A stretch of 64,000 nucleotides of DNA from Chloroflexota bacterium (GTDB lineage Bacteria; Chloroflexota; Dehalococcoidia; Lucifugimonadales; Lucifugimonadaceae), in NCBI GenBank assembly GCA_013204545.1, contig JABMNN010000120.1, positions 62,001 to 126,000 on the forward strand. The letters are read 5' to 3'. Below are positions 32,524 through 39,999 of the stretch, one piece after another (the stretch's first letter is position 1; each line of letters begins with the position of its first letter). The notes under the pieces are model-generated. The model was not told the origin of the DNA and made no database searches. It saw only the letters and a list, made by a program, of their open reading frames with translations. Made by a program: the position numbers and the translations under genes.

Positions 32524-33786
32524 ATGGAACTCCTCAGAATTGCCACAGCCGGATCAGTCGACGATGGTAAAAGCACGCTCATTGGGCGACTGCTGTTCGA
32601 CTCGAAAGCGATCTACGACGACGTGCTTGATTCAGCTGAACGCCACAGTCGTAAACAAAGCTCCGAATATTTCAACCTAGCGCTGCTTACCGATGGTCTT
32701 CGGGCCGAACGAGAGCAGGGAATCACAATTGATGTTGCTTATCGCTACTTCGCTACCCCTAAACGAAAGTTCATCCTCGCTGATACTCCCGGGCATGTTC
32801 AGTACACACGGAATATGGTTACGGGTGCTTCGACCGCTGACGTTGCGCTAGTGATCGTTGATGCCCGTCATGGGGTGGTTGAGCAGTCGCGTCGTCACGC
32901 AGTGATTGCCGCATTGCTTGGAATCAGGCACGTTGTCGTTTGCATCAACAAGATGGACCTCGTCGGCTACAGCGAGGAAGTGTTCAGGCCGATTCAATCT
33001 GATCTTCATGCGCTACTACAGGAACTCGAAATCGAGTCGCACCACTTCATTCCTATATCCGCTCTTCAGGGCGACAACGTTGTTGAGCACTCCGAACACA
33101 TGCCCTGGTATGACGAGGGGCCTCTGCTCCCTTATCTTGAACAGCTAGTGCTTCCTGATCTCACCCATGACAAACCGTTCAGGTTTCCTGTTCAGTACGT
33201 AATCCGACCTTTGAGCAATGAGTTTCACGACTACCGTGGATACGCTGGGACGATTGCGAGTGGGACGGTCAAGGTAGGGCAAGAGATCGCAGTCATGCCC
33301 TCTGGGGCGACGACGATTGTCACCGCAATCGAATCACCACAGGGTGAAGTTTCCTCAGCATCAGAAAAAGAAGCTGTGACAATTCGAATCGCAGACAATC
33401 TGGATATATCCCGTGGTGCGATGTTGAGCAGTGCGACTGAACGACCGAGAACCGACAACACGATTGATGCCACGATCTGTTGGATGGGCGAGAAGACCTC
33501 GCTCAAGCCAGGTGCAATGCTTAGAATCAAACATACGACTCACACAGCTCGTGTGATGGTTAACTCCCTTCAGTGCAAGATCGATATCAACCAAATCTCG
33601 GTCACCGGATCCTGTGAAGAACTTAGGCTGAACGAAATCGGCCAGGTGACTCTTCGTAGCAGTGAGCCGCTTGTGTATGACGATTATGCAGGTAGTCGAG
33701 GGACCGGAAGCTTCATTTTAATTGACGAAACGACGAATGACACCGTCGCTGCCGGCATGATTGGCAGACCCAAATTCCTCGGGTAG
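32524..33786 (+). CDS. cysN: Sulfate adenylyltransferase subunit 1 (GTPase)
   Basis: The 420-residue translation-factor GTPase has GSVDDGKST (10-18), the switch II DTPGHVQYTRNM and NKMD, then beta-barrel domains ending GMIGRPKFLG. It powers APS synthesis by CysD through GTP hydrolysis. There is no fused CysC kinase domain. Its last nine codons form the left end of the putative integrative element: a diverged second copy of the same coding tail lies at 38608-38640, so the present 3' end may have been brought in by the element. Confidence 0.96.
   Translation: MELLRIATAGSVDDGKSTLIGRLLFDSKAIYDDVLDSAERHSRKQSSEYFNLALLTDGLRAEREQGITIDVAYRYFATPKRKFILADTPGHVQYTRNMVTGASTADVALVIVDARHGVVEQSRRHAVIAALLGIRHVVVCINKMDLVGYSEEVFRPIQSDLHALLQELEIESHHFIPISALQGDNVVEHSEHMPWYDEGPLLPYLEQLVLPDLTHDKPFRFPVQYVIRPLSNEFHDYRGYAGTIASGTVKVGQEIAVMPSGATTIVTAIESPQGEVSSASEKEAVTIRIADNLDISRGAMLSSATERPRTDNTIDATICWMGEKTSLKPGAMLRIKHTTHTARVMVNSLQCKIDINQISVTGSCEELRLNEIGQVTLRSSEPLVYDDYAGSRGTGSFILIDETTNDTVAAGMIGRPKFLG
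33754..33780 (+). repeat. Left attachment-site candidate (attL) in cysN
   Basis: The segment starts GGCATGAT and ends TTCCTC, just before the cysN stop at 33784. Shared blocks with the right copy are GGCATGAT, GG, AGACC and TTCCTC in the same order and spacing. Crossover is most likely within GGCATGAT, the longest identical block. Confidence 0.55.
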
Positions 33787-34029: not shown

Positions 34030-34149
34030 CTGTCGATCATTCAGACTTCATTCGACCACAGCACTGCTTTCGACATCGCGTGCCAAGGCCAAGGCGCATC
34101 ACGGCAACAAGGATTCAGTGATCGATTATGCGTATCAACTGGCCAATGA
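34030..34149 (+). pseudogene. Decayed 3' end of a pdxA-family gene
   Basis: One frame reads SIIQTSFDHSTAFDIACQGQ and, after a one-base shift near 34090, another reads KAHHGNKDSVIDYAYQLAN. Together they match the C-terminus of the intact pdxA-like gene at 41334-42344 ([20 protein letters not shown] and NHANMVSAIDYAYSLA), and the DNA aligns along about 110 bp with many synonymous differences. It is a fragment with no start, not a functional gene. Its position just inside the left end of the integrated element suggests past rearrangement around a DUF1537/pdxA unit. Confidence 0.8.
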
Positions 34150-34168
34150 TCAGCACGTATATAACCCC

Positions 34169-35032
34169 CTATTCAAGCAGATCCCTGTAGTACTCCCTGA
34201 CCTCGTCCTCAGTGGGTGAGCGATCACCTGTCACAGGCAGTGTCAGTCTTCTGTGATTGTTGGCGGTACCCACAGCACGTGAATCAACGTGATCGATCCA
34301 GCGTTTGGCAAGATTTCCCCCGTGAATGTTACTAAACCGACCTAATACGCTGTTCCAACTTCCGTTGGGCCGTGGGTTGCCATCGAGTAAAAAATGGGCT
34401 ATCAGGTGCCCGCGAATACTTTCAACTTGTGGAGTCCCATGTTCAGCGGGAACCCTAAAATTCTCGACGAGTGACGAATCGTACAACCTCTCATAAATAG
34501 CGATGTGGCCGATCAAGCGATGGCACATCAAACAGATGACTGGAGGAGAGTCTTCTTGATAATCAATGTTGTCGGGTAACTCGGCAAGCCACATGTCTGT
34601 TAGAGGAATGTCCCAAACTCTGATCAGCCCGAGATCCGTCCACAACTCAATATCGCACGAGTAGTTATAAATTGCCCGTCGAACTACTTCGTACGTGGTT
34701 CTCCTGCTCGTTGGCACCCTCTTGGCGACTGCGGTCATCGGTCTTCCGCCGAGGAAAGAGAATAAAACCCGGCGTATTCCGGGAATAGTTTTTTTCCGGA
34801 GCTCGTAACTGATCCCTCTAGACGGAGCTATGTGAAAATCTCCGAACCACGGGAACTTCTCGGCTCCTAAAGTGAGGGCCCTAGAATATTCGTCAGGATC
34901 TTCGAGAGCTCGAGGTAGGGCGATTAGATCGAGTTCGATTCGCTGGGATCTGGGCTCATTTCGCTTAGAAAACGGGTTGATTACCGGTTGATACGGATCG
35001 TTTTGTTCTTGTTTTCGTTGAAATAGATTCAT
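34169..35032 (-). CDS. Unknown protein of the integrative element
   Basis: The 287-residue soluble protein is not recognised. A helix-turn-helix-like stretch (GGRPMTAVAKRVPTSRRTTY, about residues 94-113) resembles the DNA-binding part of transposases and element regulators. A single CxxC (CLMC) lies near residue 172, followed by a His-rich C-terminal half. It faces the cysN side and precedes, on the same strand, nothing but the pdxA remnant. A role in element maintenance or as cargo is possible. Confidence 0.7.
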   Translation of the reverse strand: MNLFQRKQEQNDPYQPVINPFSKRNEPRSQRIELDLIALPRALEDPDEYSRALTLGAEKFPWFGDFHIAPSRGISYELRKKTIPGIRRVLFSFLGGRPMTAVAKRVPTSRRTTYEVVRRAIYNYSCDIELWTDLGLIRVWDIPLTDMWLAELPDNIDYQEDSPPVICLMCHRLIGHIAIYERLYDSSLVENFRVPAEHGTPQVESIRGHLIAHFLLDGNPRPNGSWNSVLGRFSNIHGGNLAKRWIDHVDSRAVGTANNHRRLTLPVTGDRSPTEDEVREYYRDLLE

Positions 35033-35097: not shown

Positions 35098-35463
35098 TTA
35101 TTTCGCATCGGTTTTTTTAATCCGAGCTGACGACGGGACTCTGGCGAACCAAAAGATCGGCAGGTGTGCTGCGGCCACTAAAAGCCGATGACCCTCAAGT
35201 ACACCTACGCCGAGTCGCACTAATCCCCGAGCAATTTTGACAACAATAGTTCTGCTGAGATTGGCTTTGATTCCGTTCTCAATCCGATGTAGATATGGAC
35301 GACCAACCCCGCTTAGTTCAGCGAGGCGATAGTTGCTGCAGCCAAACTTCTCGCGAAACCGGCTAAGAGTGACTGAGGGCTCCTCATCAGGGTCGCCGAA
35401 GAACGGATTCACGCTTTTGGAAGCTGAGCCATTCTCGCTTCCTGATTGCCTTTGTAACTTCAT
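35098..35463 (-). CDS. XRE-type transcriptional regulator
   Basis: The 121-residue protein contains a Cro/CI-type helix-turn-helix: FGCSNYRLAELSGVGRPYLH then RIENGIKANLS, roughly residues 38-68. The C-terminal part is hydrophobic and short. It is divergent from a second XRE gene at 35798, with two repeat structures between them, the arrangement of a switch in phage and integrative elements. Which genes it controls is inferred only from position. Confidence 0.8.
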   Translation of the reverse strand: MKLQRQSGSENGSASKSVNPFFGDPDEEPSVTLSRFREKFGCSNYRLAELSGVGRPYLHRIENGIKANLSRTIVVKIARGLVRLGVGVLEGHRLLVAAAHLPIFWFARVPSSARIKKTDAK

Positions 35464-35676: not shown

Positions 35677-35692
35677 TCCCAAGAATTTGGGA
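35677..35692. promoter_or_regulatory. Candidate XRE operator (palindrome)
   Basis: TCCCAA-GAAT-TTGGGA has perfect 6-bp arms, sited in the divergent XRE control region. Size and symmetry suit a Cro/CI-type dimer. Confidence 0.35.
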
Positions 35693-35751
35693 AAGCCAAT
35701 ACGTAATACCTCTATTACTCGGAATTTGAACTCGAATTGTTGTGGGAAAAT

Positions 35752-35767
35752 CGCGACAGCGCGACAG
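35752..35767. repeat. Tandem CGCGACAG repeat
   Basis: Two perfect copies of CGCGACAG lie head to tail, ending 30 bp before the start of the plus-strand XRE gene. They could be an operator or a short slippage repeat. Confidence 0.4.
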
Positions 35768-35797
35768 TTAGCTATTGCCGGGCACATGGGAGTTAAT

Positions 35798-36265
35798 ATG
35801 AACAAAGATCTTCTCGAGCATTCCTTTTCACACACCCTTCGGGGTGTACTAGACGACTACGTAATTAGTAACTACAAACTTGCCAAGACAAGTGGATTGG
35901 ATCCGGGTCACGTATCACGTCTCGTGAACGGATCACGAAACCGGCCACAGAGCAAGACGGTCCAAAAATTGACCCATGCACTCGCGAGACTCGGTGTTAG
36001 TAATACCGACATATCCCGAGTTCAGATATCCGCGGGATTCAAACCTTTTGGTGGAGTGACTGATACTCCACTTGTTGAAACCCCTCGCAGACCCGAACGA
36101 CGAAGTCGAGAGACCAATAAGAATGTCGATCCGTCGAAGATCGTTTTGAAAATGGGATCCGGCATCTCGGTCCAAGACGTCAGTAAAAAAACCGAACGAC
36201 GAGAATTCATTCACGCTAAGATCGACATGGACGATGGTGATAGGCCTTACACAGTGATACTTTGA
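35798..36265 (+). CDS. XRE-type transcriptional regulator
   Basis: An ATG at 35798 follows GGGAG (35788-35792) and gives 155 residues. The frame is open farther upstream but has no better site. The helix-turn-helix reads DDYVISNYKLAKTSGLDPGH then VSRLVNGSRNRPQS. The C-terminal half (about 80-155) is charged, rich in Arg, Thr and Lys, and probably flexible. Divergent from the other XRE gene and convergent with the recombinases. Confidence 0.8.
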   Translation: MNKDLLEHSFSHTLRGVLDDYVISNYKLAKTSGLDPGHVSRLVNGSRNRPQSKTVQKLTHALARLGVSNTDISRVQISAGFKPFGGVTDTPLVETPRRPERRSRETNKNVDPSKIVLKMGSGISVQDVSKKTERREFIHAKIDMDDGDRPYTVIL

Positions 36266-36306: not shown

Positions 36307-37311
36307 TCAACGCCTGCCCCCTAGCTGGCTGATCCAGAGTTCCCCTGGGCTTTGATTAGCGAATTGCCCAGATGATGCAGGGGCAATACTCCGCCGATCT
36401 CTCGACGACAATCGATCTATCGTGCTGAGACTTCTGGTGGCTTCAGCTACTTGAACTCCGGTGAAATGAAGGTAGTGCAGCACCATGTCCATGCTTGAAT
36501 GCCCCAGAGCTTCTTTTAGAAGAAAAGCGCTTCCACCGGCCAGCAGGAACGCCGAAGCGAAACTGTGGCGAAGAAGATGTGGATGAAGCCGTGAAATTCC
36601 CGAACGCCCGCGTAGGCGTACGAAAAGCTGGTAGAGAGACCCTCGGTTCATGTTTCTACCGATAGACGAGACGAAAATGCGCTCCGAGAGACAGTCGTTG
36701 GGCCTTTCGTGGAGCATGTAGGCCGTGATGTATTTCGCAGTCGTACGCCCAAATGACACGATGCGTTCACGGCGACCTTTTCCTAGAACTTTAAGCGTCG
36801 CTCGATTGATGTTCAGGTCCTCAATCTTTGCTCCCGTAAGCTCGCTCGCTCTCAGCCCCGAATCCAGCATCAAGCTCACGATTGCAACGTCTCGTCTGTA
36901 GATAGATGCAGCTTGCAACAAGGTCGTAACTTCGAAGTCTGATAGAACGTCGATCGTTTGTGTGAGTATCTTCGGGGGCCTGAAGTCTTTTAGAAGATGA
37001 ATTTCTGTGTATTGGTTCCGGTAGAGCCATGAACAGAACGCCCTAATGCAGCGAACGTGACCATTTATCGTCGAAGATGAAAGTGGTCGGCCCTTGAAAC
37101 GTCTATCCCTAAGCGACGCACAGTAACGCCGGAAGTGTTCCTCGGTTAGTTCGCATGCTAAAGTCTCTACTGGGATGCCAGATTCGGACTTGAACATCTG
37201 TGGGATCGCGTAGTTGTACCAACGGAGGGTGTCGTCACTCTTCATCTCAGACCTGTTGAAGAGTTGGAACATATCAAACGCTATTCCCATCGGTGTATTT
37301 CTCTTATCCAT
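36307..37311 (-). CDS. Tyrosine recombinase 1
   Basis: The start is ATG 37311, preceded by GAAAGGTG; a longer frame to 37365 lacks a site. It gives 334 residues. A SAM-like N-terminal core-binding domain precedes the catalytic domain, which has all conserved residues: Arg in SGLRASELTG, Lys in VLGKGRRER, HxxR in HLLRHSF, His in LGHSS and the nucleophile Tyr in LHYLHF. It should cut and join DNA at the element's attachment sites. A palindrome of TTGCCA/TGGCAA type lies 87 bp upstream. Confidence 0.93.
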   Translation of the reverse strand: MDKRNTPMGIAFDMFQLFNRSEMKSDDTLRWYNYAIPQMFKSESGIPVETLACELTEEHFRRYCASLRDRRFKGRPLSSSTINGHVRCIRAFCSWLYRNQYTEIHLLKDFRPPKILTQTIDVLSDFEVTTLLQAASIYRRDVAIVSLMLDSGLRASELTGAKIEDLNINRATLKVLGKGRRERIVSFGRTTAKYITAYMLHERPNDCLSERIFVSSIGRNMNRGSLYQLFVRLRGRSGISRLHPHLLRHSFASAFLLAGGSAFLLKEALGHSSMDMVLHYLHFTGVQVAEATRSLSTIDRLSSRDRRSIAPASSGQFANQSPGELWISQLGGRR

Positions 37312-37397: not shown

Positions 37398-37416
37398 AGT
37401 TGCCAGTGTGGCAACT
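37398..37416. promoter_or_regulatory. Palindrome upstream of recombinase 1
   Basis: AGTTGCCA-GTG-TGGCAACT has perfect 8-bp arms and a 3-bp spacer, between the two recombinase genes. The same core TTGCCA-N3-TGGCAA recurs upstream of the second recombinase. It is either an operator or a recombinase-binding site. Confidence 0.6.
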
Positions 37417-37440
37417 GCCGGAATCAGAGTGGAAGGTGGT

Positions 37441-38382
37441 CTAGATGGGGCGTATCAATTTATGGAGTGAAAACGCACTACTACCAGCGTCGAGTAGTGA
37501 GGCTTTTCTACTGAGTTCGTAATTACTCACTCCGGCCATTCGAATGTATGTGGCTACAGCCTTAAACGATGTATGCCCCATGTTTTCTCGTAAGAGGAAC
37601 GAATCACCGCCCTGTGCTAAAAACCTGTTCGCATACGTAACCCTGAACAGATGCCAGTGGAGTCTTTTGATTCTCGTGTTCTTACGAACTGTGGCGAGCC
37701 TTGCTTGAAGTTTTGCTCCCGTAAATGCAGTTCCATCTTCATTGATAAACAGGGTGTCAGAGAGTGGATGAATGAGTTCCCTCCAAACTAGGTGACGTTC
37801 TACGAGCTGTTGGAAGGTGTTCCCAAACGGGACCATTCGCCACTTTCTTCGTTTTCCAAAAACCCGCACGGTCTGGTTATCGAAGTTCACGTCTTCAAGT
37901 TTCAAAATTGCGAGCTCAGTGCGTCTCAGTCCGCATTCGAGAGCGAGCGCAATGATCGCAGTCAGTTGAGGAGAACGTAGAGTGCTTGAGAAAATCCTCT
38001 TGATTTCATCGTCGGTTAGGGGTTCGAAGAGCTGATAGTCGGCCCGAGGAGGAGTCATGGTTTGTAGTAGAGGATTAGGAACAATCTCTGATTGATGTGC
38101 CCACTTAAAAAAACGTCTTAGTACAAGGAATTCGGTATTCATTGTCGAAAACCTCATACCTTTCCCTCCTCTACCCAATTCCCTGCGGTCAATTAGATAG
38201 TGAAGCAGGCGTTCCTCTTTTATGTCATCACATCTGAACTCGTCGCCAAGCCCGTAATCAGAATCAACAAGAAACTTAAGTACTCTTTTTGCAGTTTCAG
38301 ATGTGTTGTGCCCCCAGCCCGATGCTTTTCCTTGAAGCAGGTAAAAATTCCTAATTTCCCCGATGGTGTTGAGTTCGTCCAT
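37441..38382 (-). CDS. Tyrosine recombinase 2
   Basis: The 313-residue protein has the full catalytic set: Arg in CGLRRTELA, Lys in VFGKRRKWR, HxxR in HLFRVTY, His in MGHTSF and Tyr in ATYIRM. It is only distantly like recombinase 1, so the pair is not a recent duplication. It lies upstream of recombinase 1 on the same strand and nearest the right end of the element. Two TTGCCA/TGGCAA palindromes stand 14 and 56 bp before its start. Both recombinases may act together as in other paired systems. Confidence 0.93.
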   Translation of the reverse strand: MDELNTIGEIRNFYLLQGKASGWGHNTSETAKRVLKFLVDSDYGLGDEFRCDDIKEERLLHYLIDRRELGRGGKGMRFSTMNTEFLVLRRFFKWAHQSEIVPNPLLQTMTPPRADYQLFEPLTDDEIKRIFSSTLRSPQLTAIIALALECGLRRTELAILKLEDVNFDNQTVRVFGKRRKWRMVPFGNTFQQLVERHLVWRELIHPLSDTLFINEDGTAFTGAKLQARLATVRKNTRIKRLHWHLFRVTYANRFLAQGGDSFLLRENMGHTSFKAVATYIRMAGVSNYELSRKASLLDAGSSAFSLHKLIRPI

Positions 38383-38395
38383 AGATTGAATCCCC

Positions 38396-38407
38396 TGGCA
38401 ATTGCCA
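38396..38407. promoter_or_regulatory. Palindrome TGGCAATTGCCA upstream of recombinase 2
   Basis: A perfect 12-bp palindrome 14 bp before the recombinase 2 start, made of the same half-sites as the two larger palindromes but in the opposite order and without spacer. Its position over the ribosome-binding or early promoter region suits repression. Confidence 0.5.
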
Positions 38408-38437
38408 TGCGGCTTAGATTGTGTAATTCAACTTGAA

Positions 38438-38462
38438 ACACATTGCCAATCTGGCAACGTGT
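38438..38462. promoter_or_regulatory. Palindrome upstream of recombinase 2
   Basis: ACACATTGCCA-ATC-TGGCAACGTGT has 11-bp arms with one mismatch and a 3-bp spacer, 56 bp upstream of the recombinase 2 start. It shares its core and spacer length with the palindrome at 37398-37416, which marks it as a specific binding site. Confidence 0.6.
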
Positions 38463-38996
38463 GCTTGCGGGGGCAGATCAACAGATCGAGGCAGAACGCC
38501 TTTTTCGGAGATTTCGACCTATTTTTTTCGGACTAAGTGACATTTCGAGATTGAAAAATGCTTAGTTACGCCAGAAAAATATGATGAGTCGCAAATCATT
38601 ATTGGAAGGCATGATAGGAAGACCGCGCTTCCTCAAATAGCGCATGGTGTATCCGGAATTAGCACCCGCGGGTACCTAGATCCGGATCCTTCAGCAGGTT
38701 TCAGCTGGATCTTAGGTACATTCCGGTCGTATGGACGATGATATTTATTTCAATCGTGTGGGTGCTTAGCAGATCTTCGTTCTGTGAACGTGCATGCCAG
38801 TTTTTGGACCTCAGAACTAATTCAAGAATTTTTGTTCGGTAACCTGTGGCCAAGTCGCGATGCGCTGGAACAGGTTTTCTGAGAGAGTAGCAGGGTGTCA
38901 GTCTTCGATGCGCACGATTTCCAGGTGATCGAGGATAAGGTGCTTCCAAACTGACCACTACTTGATTATTTAGCCCACTGACACAAAGACCTATCT
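38463..38996. other. Right end of the element and degenerate sequence beyond
   Basis: Apart from the displaced cysN tail at 38608-38640 I see no intact gene. Short open stretches at 38720-38960 on either strand are broken by stops and carry nothing I recognise. They may be relics of a gene that once followed cysN. Confidence 0.45.
38608..38634 (+). repeat. Right attachment-site candidate (attR), displaced cysN tail
   Basis: This 27-bp segment repeats the end of cysN with six substitutions and reads, with the codons after it, GMIGRPRFLK and TAG at 38638-38640. The differences preserve the protein, suggesting it is the tail of a cysN allele displaced at integration rather than a recent duplication. 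It lies 226 bp upstream of the second recombinase start. Confidence 0.6.
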
Positions 38997-39692
38997 GTGC
39001 TGAGAAAAATCAATAAATTTCGACTCCGAGTTCGACACAGGCTTTTTAGAACTGTATTGGGTCGAATAATTAAATTGGAACCAATGCAGGGACTCAGACG
39101 AGTTGGCTCGGAGGGAGCCCCTTGGACCGTCCCTCTGGATGAGTTTGACAGTTCGTCGGTGTGTTACCTGGCCGGAGTTGGTGAAGATATAACCTTTGAT
39201 ATTGCATTGGTCGAACAAGCCCGCTGTAAGGCTCACTCGTTCGATCCGACACCACGCGCAGCTACTCACATAGAGTCACTTAACCTGCCAGACGGCTACA
39301 CTTTCCACAAATTCGGTATTTGGTCGTCGGATACGACCCTAAAATTTTTCGCACCTGAAAACCCATCGAACGTTTCGCACTCGATTCTAAATCTGCAAAG
39401 AACCGAGGAATATTTTGAGGCGGGCGTGCGCCGGCTCAAATCTATAATGGATGAACTTGGTCACACTGAGCTAGACCTCCTGAAAATTGACATTGAAGGC
39501 GCCGAATACGAAGTGCTGGAGTCAATCATCGAGGATGATCTGAAGATCAAATACCTGTGTGTCGATTTCGATCAGCCGTACCCGATTATCAAGACCTTAA
39601 TAATGCTTCGTCGTTTGCGGAGACACGGGTACTTGCCAGTAGCCGTCGATGGCTGGGACATCTCGTTCGCATTCAAGTCACCTGTAAAGTGA
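38997..39692 (+). CDS. FkbM-family methyltransferase
   Basis: The 231-residue protein has the FkbM pattern: VCYLAGVGEDITFDIALVEQ in place of the usual VIDVGAN loop, AHSFDPTPRA and LLKIDIEGAEYEVL. It starts at GTG 38997 with no clear ribosome site. Methyltransferases of this type usually O-methylate sugars. It stands alone outside the polysaccharide locus, next to the element's right end, so it may have arrived with the insertion or been cut off from its original neighbours. Confidence 0.82.
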   Translation: MLRKINKFRLRVRHRLFRTVLGRIIKLEPMQGLRRVGSEGAPWTVPLDEFDSSSVCYLAGVGEDITFDIALVEQARCKAHSFDPTPRAATHIESLNLPDGYTFHKFGIWSSDTTLKFFAPENPSNVSHSILNLQRTEEYFEAGVRRLKSIMDELGHTELDLLKIDIEGAEYEVLESIIEDDLKIKYLCVDFDQPYPIIKTLIMLRRLRRHGYLPVAVDGWDISFAFKSPVK

Positions 39693-39999
39693 TCTGGAGC
39701 AGAATTCTGCTATTGCAGAGAAATTGTTACTAGGTTTGATAGCGGTCGAAAGTCTGGTCGAGTATGAATTTACTCGACAAATCTGCTTACGGGAGCGAGA
39801 AAATTGCGATTCGCTTGTCGCTGCAGTTGGCGACTCACCCGACTGATGATATTGACTGGCGTATGCCCTCAATTAGCGAAATAATTGGAACACATGATCA
39901 GGCGCCCCCTCAGCCGTATTTGAGTAATTTTGGCACCTAGTGTTTGGCCTGGGCTGTTGTATAGTTTTGTCTTAGTCACATGAACCAATCACCTGAACT
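39693..39999. other. Intergenic gap of about 300 bp
   Basis: No gene I can name. One 50-codon frame on the plus strand (ATG near 39767 to TAG near 39939) reads KIAIRLSLQLATHPTDD then IDWRMPSISEIIG, without a clear ribosome site. It could be a small gene or a relic. The rest should hold the promoter of the DUF1537 gene. Confidence 0.35.

Follow-up and report, generated by a model that had tools for sequence, protein, structure and literature searches.

Palindromic TTGCC/GGCAA sites ahead of two adjacent tyrosine recombinase genes in a cysN-borne integrative element as candidate expression-control sites

Three palindromic sites built from a TTGCC/GGCAA half-site stand ahead of two adjacent tyrosine recombinase genes of the window (the whole 64,000-nucleotide stretch of Chloroflexota DNA here analysed), within a 4.8-kb integrative element that occupies the 3' end of cysN. 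The three are tentatively read as expression-control sites through which a sequence-specific factor would restrain both genes, a reading given a probability of roughly 0.45. A factor recognising the half-site would bind the sites and keep the output of both recombinases low, acting at the leader of recombinase 1 on a TTGCC-N5-GGCAA dyad together with a half-site pair that touches the Shine-Dalgarno sequence, and for recombinase 2 at the palindrome between the genes; it may read either DNA or mRNA. Rarity of the motif in the genome, its conservation in an orthologue, a comparable leader in distant relatives and its absence from the left end and junctions of the element count in favour of this reading, while the finding of just one close orthologue, the chance-level score of a model of the relatives' leader (R1, below) and the lack of a palindrome before the XRE genes count against it. 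Control of integrase synthesis determines whether genomic islands stay or move, and the sites would represent a compact operator or leader, the comparison of which revealed a leader helix outside Rfam before a common tRNA-targeting integrase family.

Recombinase 1 (TR1; 37441-38382, minus strand, 313 aa, Phage_integrase E=3.5e-24) and recombinase 2 (TR2; 36307-37311, minus strand, Phage_integrase E=1.4e-30, supported by alignment) are both XerC/D-like tyrosine recombinases, and the catalytic columns R, K, H, R, H and Y of TR1 are invariant in the alignment. The coordinates that an earlier note had given for the three sites were all confirmed. The site at 37398-37416 (minus strand), AGTTGCCA-GTG-TGGCAACT, has perfect 8-bp arms and lies between the genes, 25 bp past the stop codon of recombinase 1. 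The distal palindrome of recombinase 1 at 38438-38462 (minus strand), ACACATTGCCA-ATC-TGGCAACGTGT, has 11-bp arms with one mismatch, which becomes a G.U pair in the recombinase 1 mRNA, where 5'-ACACGUUGCCA-GAU-UGGCAAUGUGU provides 11 pairs including this one; its 5-base cores read TTGCC-AGATT-GGCAA, and a 12-bp block identical in the orthologue, CTGCCCCCGCAA, lies beside it (38465-38476, minus strand). The proximal site, TGGCAATTGCCA (38396-38407, minus strand), abuts the Shine-Dalgarno AGGGGA of recombinase 1. All three use the same half-site, as claimed, but the arrangement of the two TTGCCA-N3-TGGCAA dyads is not that of this third site, whose half-sites point outward, in reverse order and with zero spacer; no two sites are alike in their central bases. 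Placement before the gene starts, also claimed, stands with a distance to the second gene that varies with its start codon: ~33 bp if TTG 37365 is taken, from which the frame is open, or 87 bp from the likely start ATG 37311, preferred because it fits better the N-termini of relatives. A sigma-70 scan gave no promoter on the relevant strand ahead of either recombinase gene.

The exact TTGCCAN3TGGCAA sequence has two copies in the entire 2.95-Mb genome, both of them here and 1,043 bp apart, the background being ~0.24 per genome in a set of 250 genomes from the order. Of 300 dinucleotide shuffles of the window, 2 produced two 6-N3-6 palindromes of one half-site within 1.1 kb of each other, which together with this rarity places the sites beyond chance.

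Just one close orthologue of recombinase 1 was found, 68% identical and encoded on contig C152 of genome G117, which stops inside this first gene, the comparison covering the recombinase 1 leader only. G117 is a fragmented metagenome-type assembly with two versions of neighbouring genes, so that C152 could derive from a related strain. This leader has a distal palindrome, CATTGCCA-ACT-TGGCAATG (L023:2398-2416), and a proximal site before the recombinase start, TGGCAGTTGCCA (L023:2451-2462), with centres 49.5 bp apart versus 48.5 bp in the window. The half-sites are unchanged save for one A-to-G base in the proximal site, compatible with G.U pairing, and the spacer is divergent; nonetheless, the whole intergenic region is already about two-thirds identical to that of the window, and site conservation is therefore not overwhelming. 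Two modules, one in G108 and the other on G117 contig C124, share the gene order at ~40% identity and have a different HTH-like gene where the window has its plus-strand one; the palindromes are absent from both of these paralogous recombinase pairs. Recombinase 2 overlaps recombinase 1 in both, so it is in the window only that the second gene has a leader of its own. Conservation before orthologous recombinases, by which the earlier note would have its motif judged, is thus seen for the first gene, with both distal and proximal sites kept, but not in the paralogous pairs. Of the two roles then offered, the regulatory one is favoured since the orthologue keeps both sites, even though the paralogous pairs lack them, while that of accessory recombination sites finds no support in the element ends. 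Viral contigs yielded neither a TR1 relative nor a match to the combined palindrome pattern, the matches among phages and plasmids were all XerC/D-like proteins under about 30% identity, genome contigs searched with TR2 gave three remote Bacillota matches, all without the motif, and a family search around genome G335 added zero new members.

Distant relatives of recombinase 1 (30-37% identity) lie mostly directly downstream of tRNA genes, and their leaders carry CTTGCC(T/C), a GACA-containing loop and AGGCAAG at the Shine-Dalgarno, followed by ATG, with GTTGTCC...GGACAAC as a variant. Expressed more generally, TTGYC-N5-GRCA precedes a GRCAA at the Shine-Dalgarno with a near-constant distance to the start codon; the tRNA-type leader of locus L100 reads GCTTGCCT...AGGCAAGC. 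A covariance model built here from this leader, R1, recovered two held-out members (E 1e-15 and 4e-14) and, across 156 genomes, hit 15 places, each in a different genome, some of them being themselves members of the model. At least 13 of the 15 stand directly before the same recombinase N-terminus, whole or decayed, the leader signal being nearly exclusive to this recombinase, and the leader reaches the gathering score of no Rfam family.

On the window, R1 scores 4-5 bits (E 2.7-10 in 5.3 kb), which is chance level and no match, so that homology to the relatives' leader is suggested only. The TTGYC-N5-GRCA dyad is nevertheless present before the recombinase, as is the GRCAA half-site at the Shine-Dalgarno (TGGCAATTGCCAGGGGA), although with an additional TTGCCA in between and a wider spacing. 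The shared TTGCC core, 5-bp spacing of the first dyad and GGCAA at the Shine-Dalgarno suggest a common origin of the window sites and the relatives' leader. From this likeness we infer a shared purpose, in which a factor binds and expression falls; integrase production is probably kept low, since the similar signal of related integrases can fold over the ribosome-binding site in mRNA.

That same property supports a rather doubtful alternative in which no factor takes part and the leader mRNA would by itself limit translation by adopting alternative hairpins (the distal one, or its arms with the Shine-Dalgarno half-sites), a mechanism we also propose for the leader of the relatives, perhaps to guard against transcription that comes in from beyond the element. 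The relatives' helix, made of TTGYC/GRCAA and its flanks, is 95.1% paired in 23 sequences (an 18-sequence set was also analysed), slid controls being 26-57% paired, and both sides change at 5/9 pairs, in 17 cells. Its covariation score was reached by 0/500 shuffles, figures that are not probabilities because the 23 leaders share ancestry. One variable pair appears as C-G in 14 sequences, U-G in 5, U-A in 4 and C-A in 0, so that a C in the 5' arm always has G as its partner (14/14) and a T has either G (5) or A (4), the pattern expected of G.U pairing, and the neighbouring half-site in the loop does not follow this variation (Fisher P = 0.014, shared ancestry not being taken into account). Variation is absent from the four core pairs, which are thus uninformative on structure; their invariance may instead mark recognition by a protein. 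The G.U compatibility of both the arm mismatch in the window and the proximal substitution in the orthologue also agrees with the hairpin alternative, as does the predicted unpaired probability of the relatives' Shine-Dalgarno, the mean of which rises from 0.25 to 0.47 on removal of the 5' arm, with several exceptions and with three rows (L008, L014 and L114) in which the automatic choice missed the Shine-Dalgarno.

On the contrary, 5' arm removal hardly alters the predicted Shine-Dalgarno accessibility in the window and the orthologue (0.32/0.36/0.23 and 0.37/0.48/0.45), the window's 5' arm thus not reducing it as in the relatives. In addition, folding of the window leader is unremarkable (z -1.6), R1 does not match it, and the recombinase 2 site lies far from its start codon. 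Considering that (i) arm removal matters little in the window and its orthologue, and (ii) the same six bases occur three times, once away from any ribosome-binding site, which a hairpin alone would not call for, control by a factor is favoured over folding alone. Pairing of CTGCCCCC with the GGGG of the Shine-Dalgarno was also considered and rejected, as it fails in the orthologue (AGGAG). That one protein controls both genes, as was proposed, is a possible reading of the sites; the relatives suggest a base-paired mRNA leader as an alternative.

It is also possible, though we hold it with little confidence, that a factor belonging to this integrase group recognises TTGYC half-sites across the class, that most members additionally form the mRNA helix at the Shine-Dalgarno, and that the two-recombinase element of the window has duplicated the half-site for its two genes; if true, such a class-wide leader controlling integrase synthesis would be undescribed. 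Between tRNA and leader, the relatives (L007-L014, L017, L100-L102, L118-L127) also show a short antisense match to nt ~36-51 of the element's own adjacent tRNA. In 12 of 17 loci this match stops 28-34 bp short of the leader helix, with mean scores of 17.9 for the own tRNA versus 13.7 for other tRNAs, and it is probably a recombinase half-site of core type located at the integrase promoter. In another recombinase clade (L122, L124 and L126) a different helix may surround the start, seen in L122 and L126 as GCTGGGTC...GATCCAGC, and copies of GACACCCTGA are repeated beside a displaced tRNA-Lys end. Strong palindromes before distant relatives were dropped as evidence, being in part tRNA T-arms and terminator-like T-run hairpins just after the tRNA.

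Besides the recombinases, the module encodes a 192-aa XRE-like HTH protein (35687-36265, plus strand), a 121-aa XRE-family HTH protein (35098-35463, minus strand, HTH_3 E=3.1e-9) and a 287-aa protein of a family not recognised (34169-35032, minus strand), which is a constant gene of the module. One of the two HTH proteins might be the binder, the sites then being its operator, a special case of the preferred control by a factor in which the factor is named. The 192-aa protein is, as the sites are, found here only, a search of 250 genomes of the order having yielded nothing closely related to it. However, no copy of the dyad lies upstream of either XRE gene, and the 121-aa protein has close relatives in the paralogous modules, which lack the site, making this identification unlikely.

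The element itself is recognised by the Phage_integrase catalytic residues, by a target-gene end with its displaced copy and by an empty site in relatives. The cysN 3' end (...GMIGRPKFLG stop) forms the left junction at 33756-33786 (plus strand), and the right element end TTATTGGAAG is followed by the displaced cysN 3' end (GMIGRPRFLK stop), both within 38596-38640 (plus strand), with the second cysN tail at 38606-38640. In six relatives, cysN reaches the next gene directly after ~100 bp. The same type of right-end junction occurs in G117 C152, adjoining the cysN 3' end, and in G108, adjoining that of pdxA. A complete related element is present in G108 (L024:5333-9721), right after the pdxA stop codon and with the displaced pdxA 3' end beyond its far side. 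Within the left end of the window's element, a frame-broken remnant of a pdxA 3' end (34040-34150) matches the pdxA site used by this G108 element, which suggests that an ancestor of the element occupied pdxA prior to cysN.

Dyads with 9-11-bp arms on the recombinase side of an element look like the sites that integrases bind, and overlap of attL with the integrase promoter is common (PMC2951348), so that the recombinases could bind the palindromes as recombination sites of an accessory (arm-type) or secondary kind. Such a role is nonetheless improbable. Arm-type sites would be present at both element ends, and neither the left end nor the junctions carry the TTGCC motif, with none between 33786 and 34100 and an isolated GGCAA at 34103; the central bases differ among all sites; and no obvious arm-binding domain was found in either recombinase. 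Moreover, the motif stays constant in the relatives while their target tRNA varies (Lys, Arg, Pro, Ala, Gly), which together with its absence from the left end and junctions leaves a recombination role unsupported.

A second insertion, consisting of an FkbM methyltransferase flanked by two cysN 3' ends, is stacked behind the element at 38641-39890. Over ~100 bp its left end can be aligned to that of the main element (score 55, against at most 49 in shuffles) and its right end also resembles the corresponding one, though not above shuffles; the insertion is possibly a non-autonomous relative moved in trans.

Chance palindromes are a very remote explanation: about 11 perfect 6-N3-6 palindromes do occur in the window, but here the same half-site appears three times, always before recombinases, and is kept in the orthologue.

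Several known systems offer comparison for control of the recombinases by a factor at these sites. In IS10 and IS50, a hairpin hides the transposase ribosome-binding site in incoming transcripts; the relatives' leader similarly pairs an upstream arm with the Shine-Dalgarno bases of a recombinase, in elements that mostly lie directly after a tRNA gene. It differs in that the enzyme is a tyrosine recombinase rather than a DDE transposase and a whole class keeps the arm sequence, and no such effect is predicted for the window's own leader. Tn554 and RIT elements have twin or triple tyrosine recombinases, a likeness that consists in the adjacency of recombinase genes of one family, whereas the companion genes are here the XRE proteins and the 287-aa protein. 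The dusA islands are site-specific integrative elements at a protein-gene end, again with a tyrosine recombinase, the target being here instead the cysN 3' end (pdxA in a relative) and the recombinases two and adjacent (PMC4482086). Finally, the intS integrase gene of the KplE1 prophage is negatively autoregulated, with attL overlapping its promoter, and such autoregulation has been proposed as widespread among tRNA-associated integrase genes (PMC2951348). In both cases a tyrosine recombinase would be controlled through sites at its att-proximal promoter; on the contrary, the intS sites belong to attL itself, where the integrase and the RDF bind, while the TTGCC dyads of the window lie ~150 bp inside the element, independent of the target sequence, and no RDF was identified; the relatives add a helix across the ribosome-binding site. 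The window sites would, by this comparison, be a modest variant of known integrase control.
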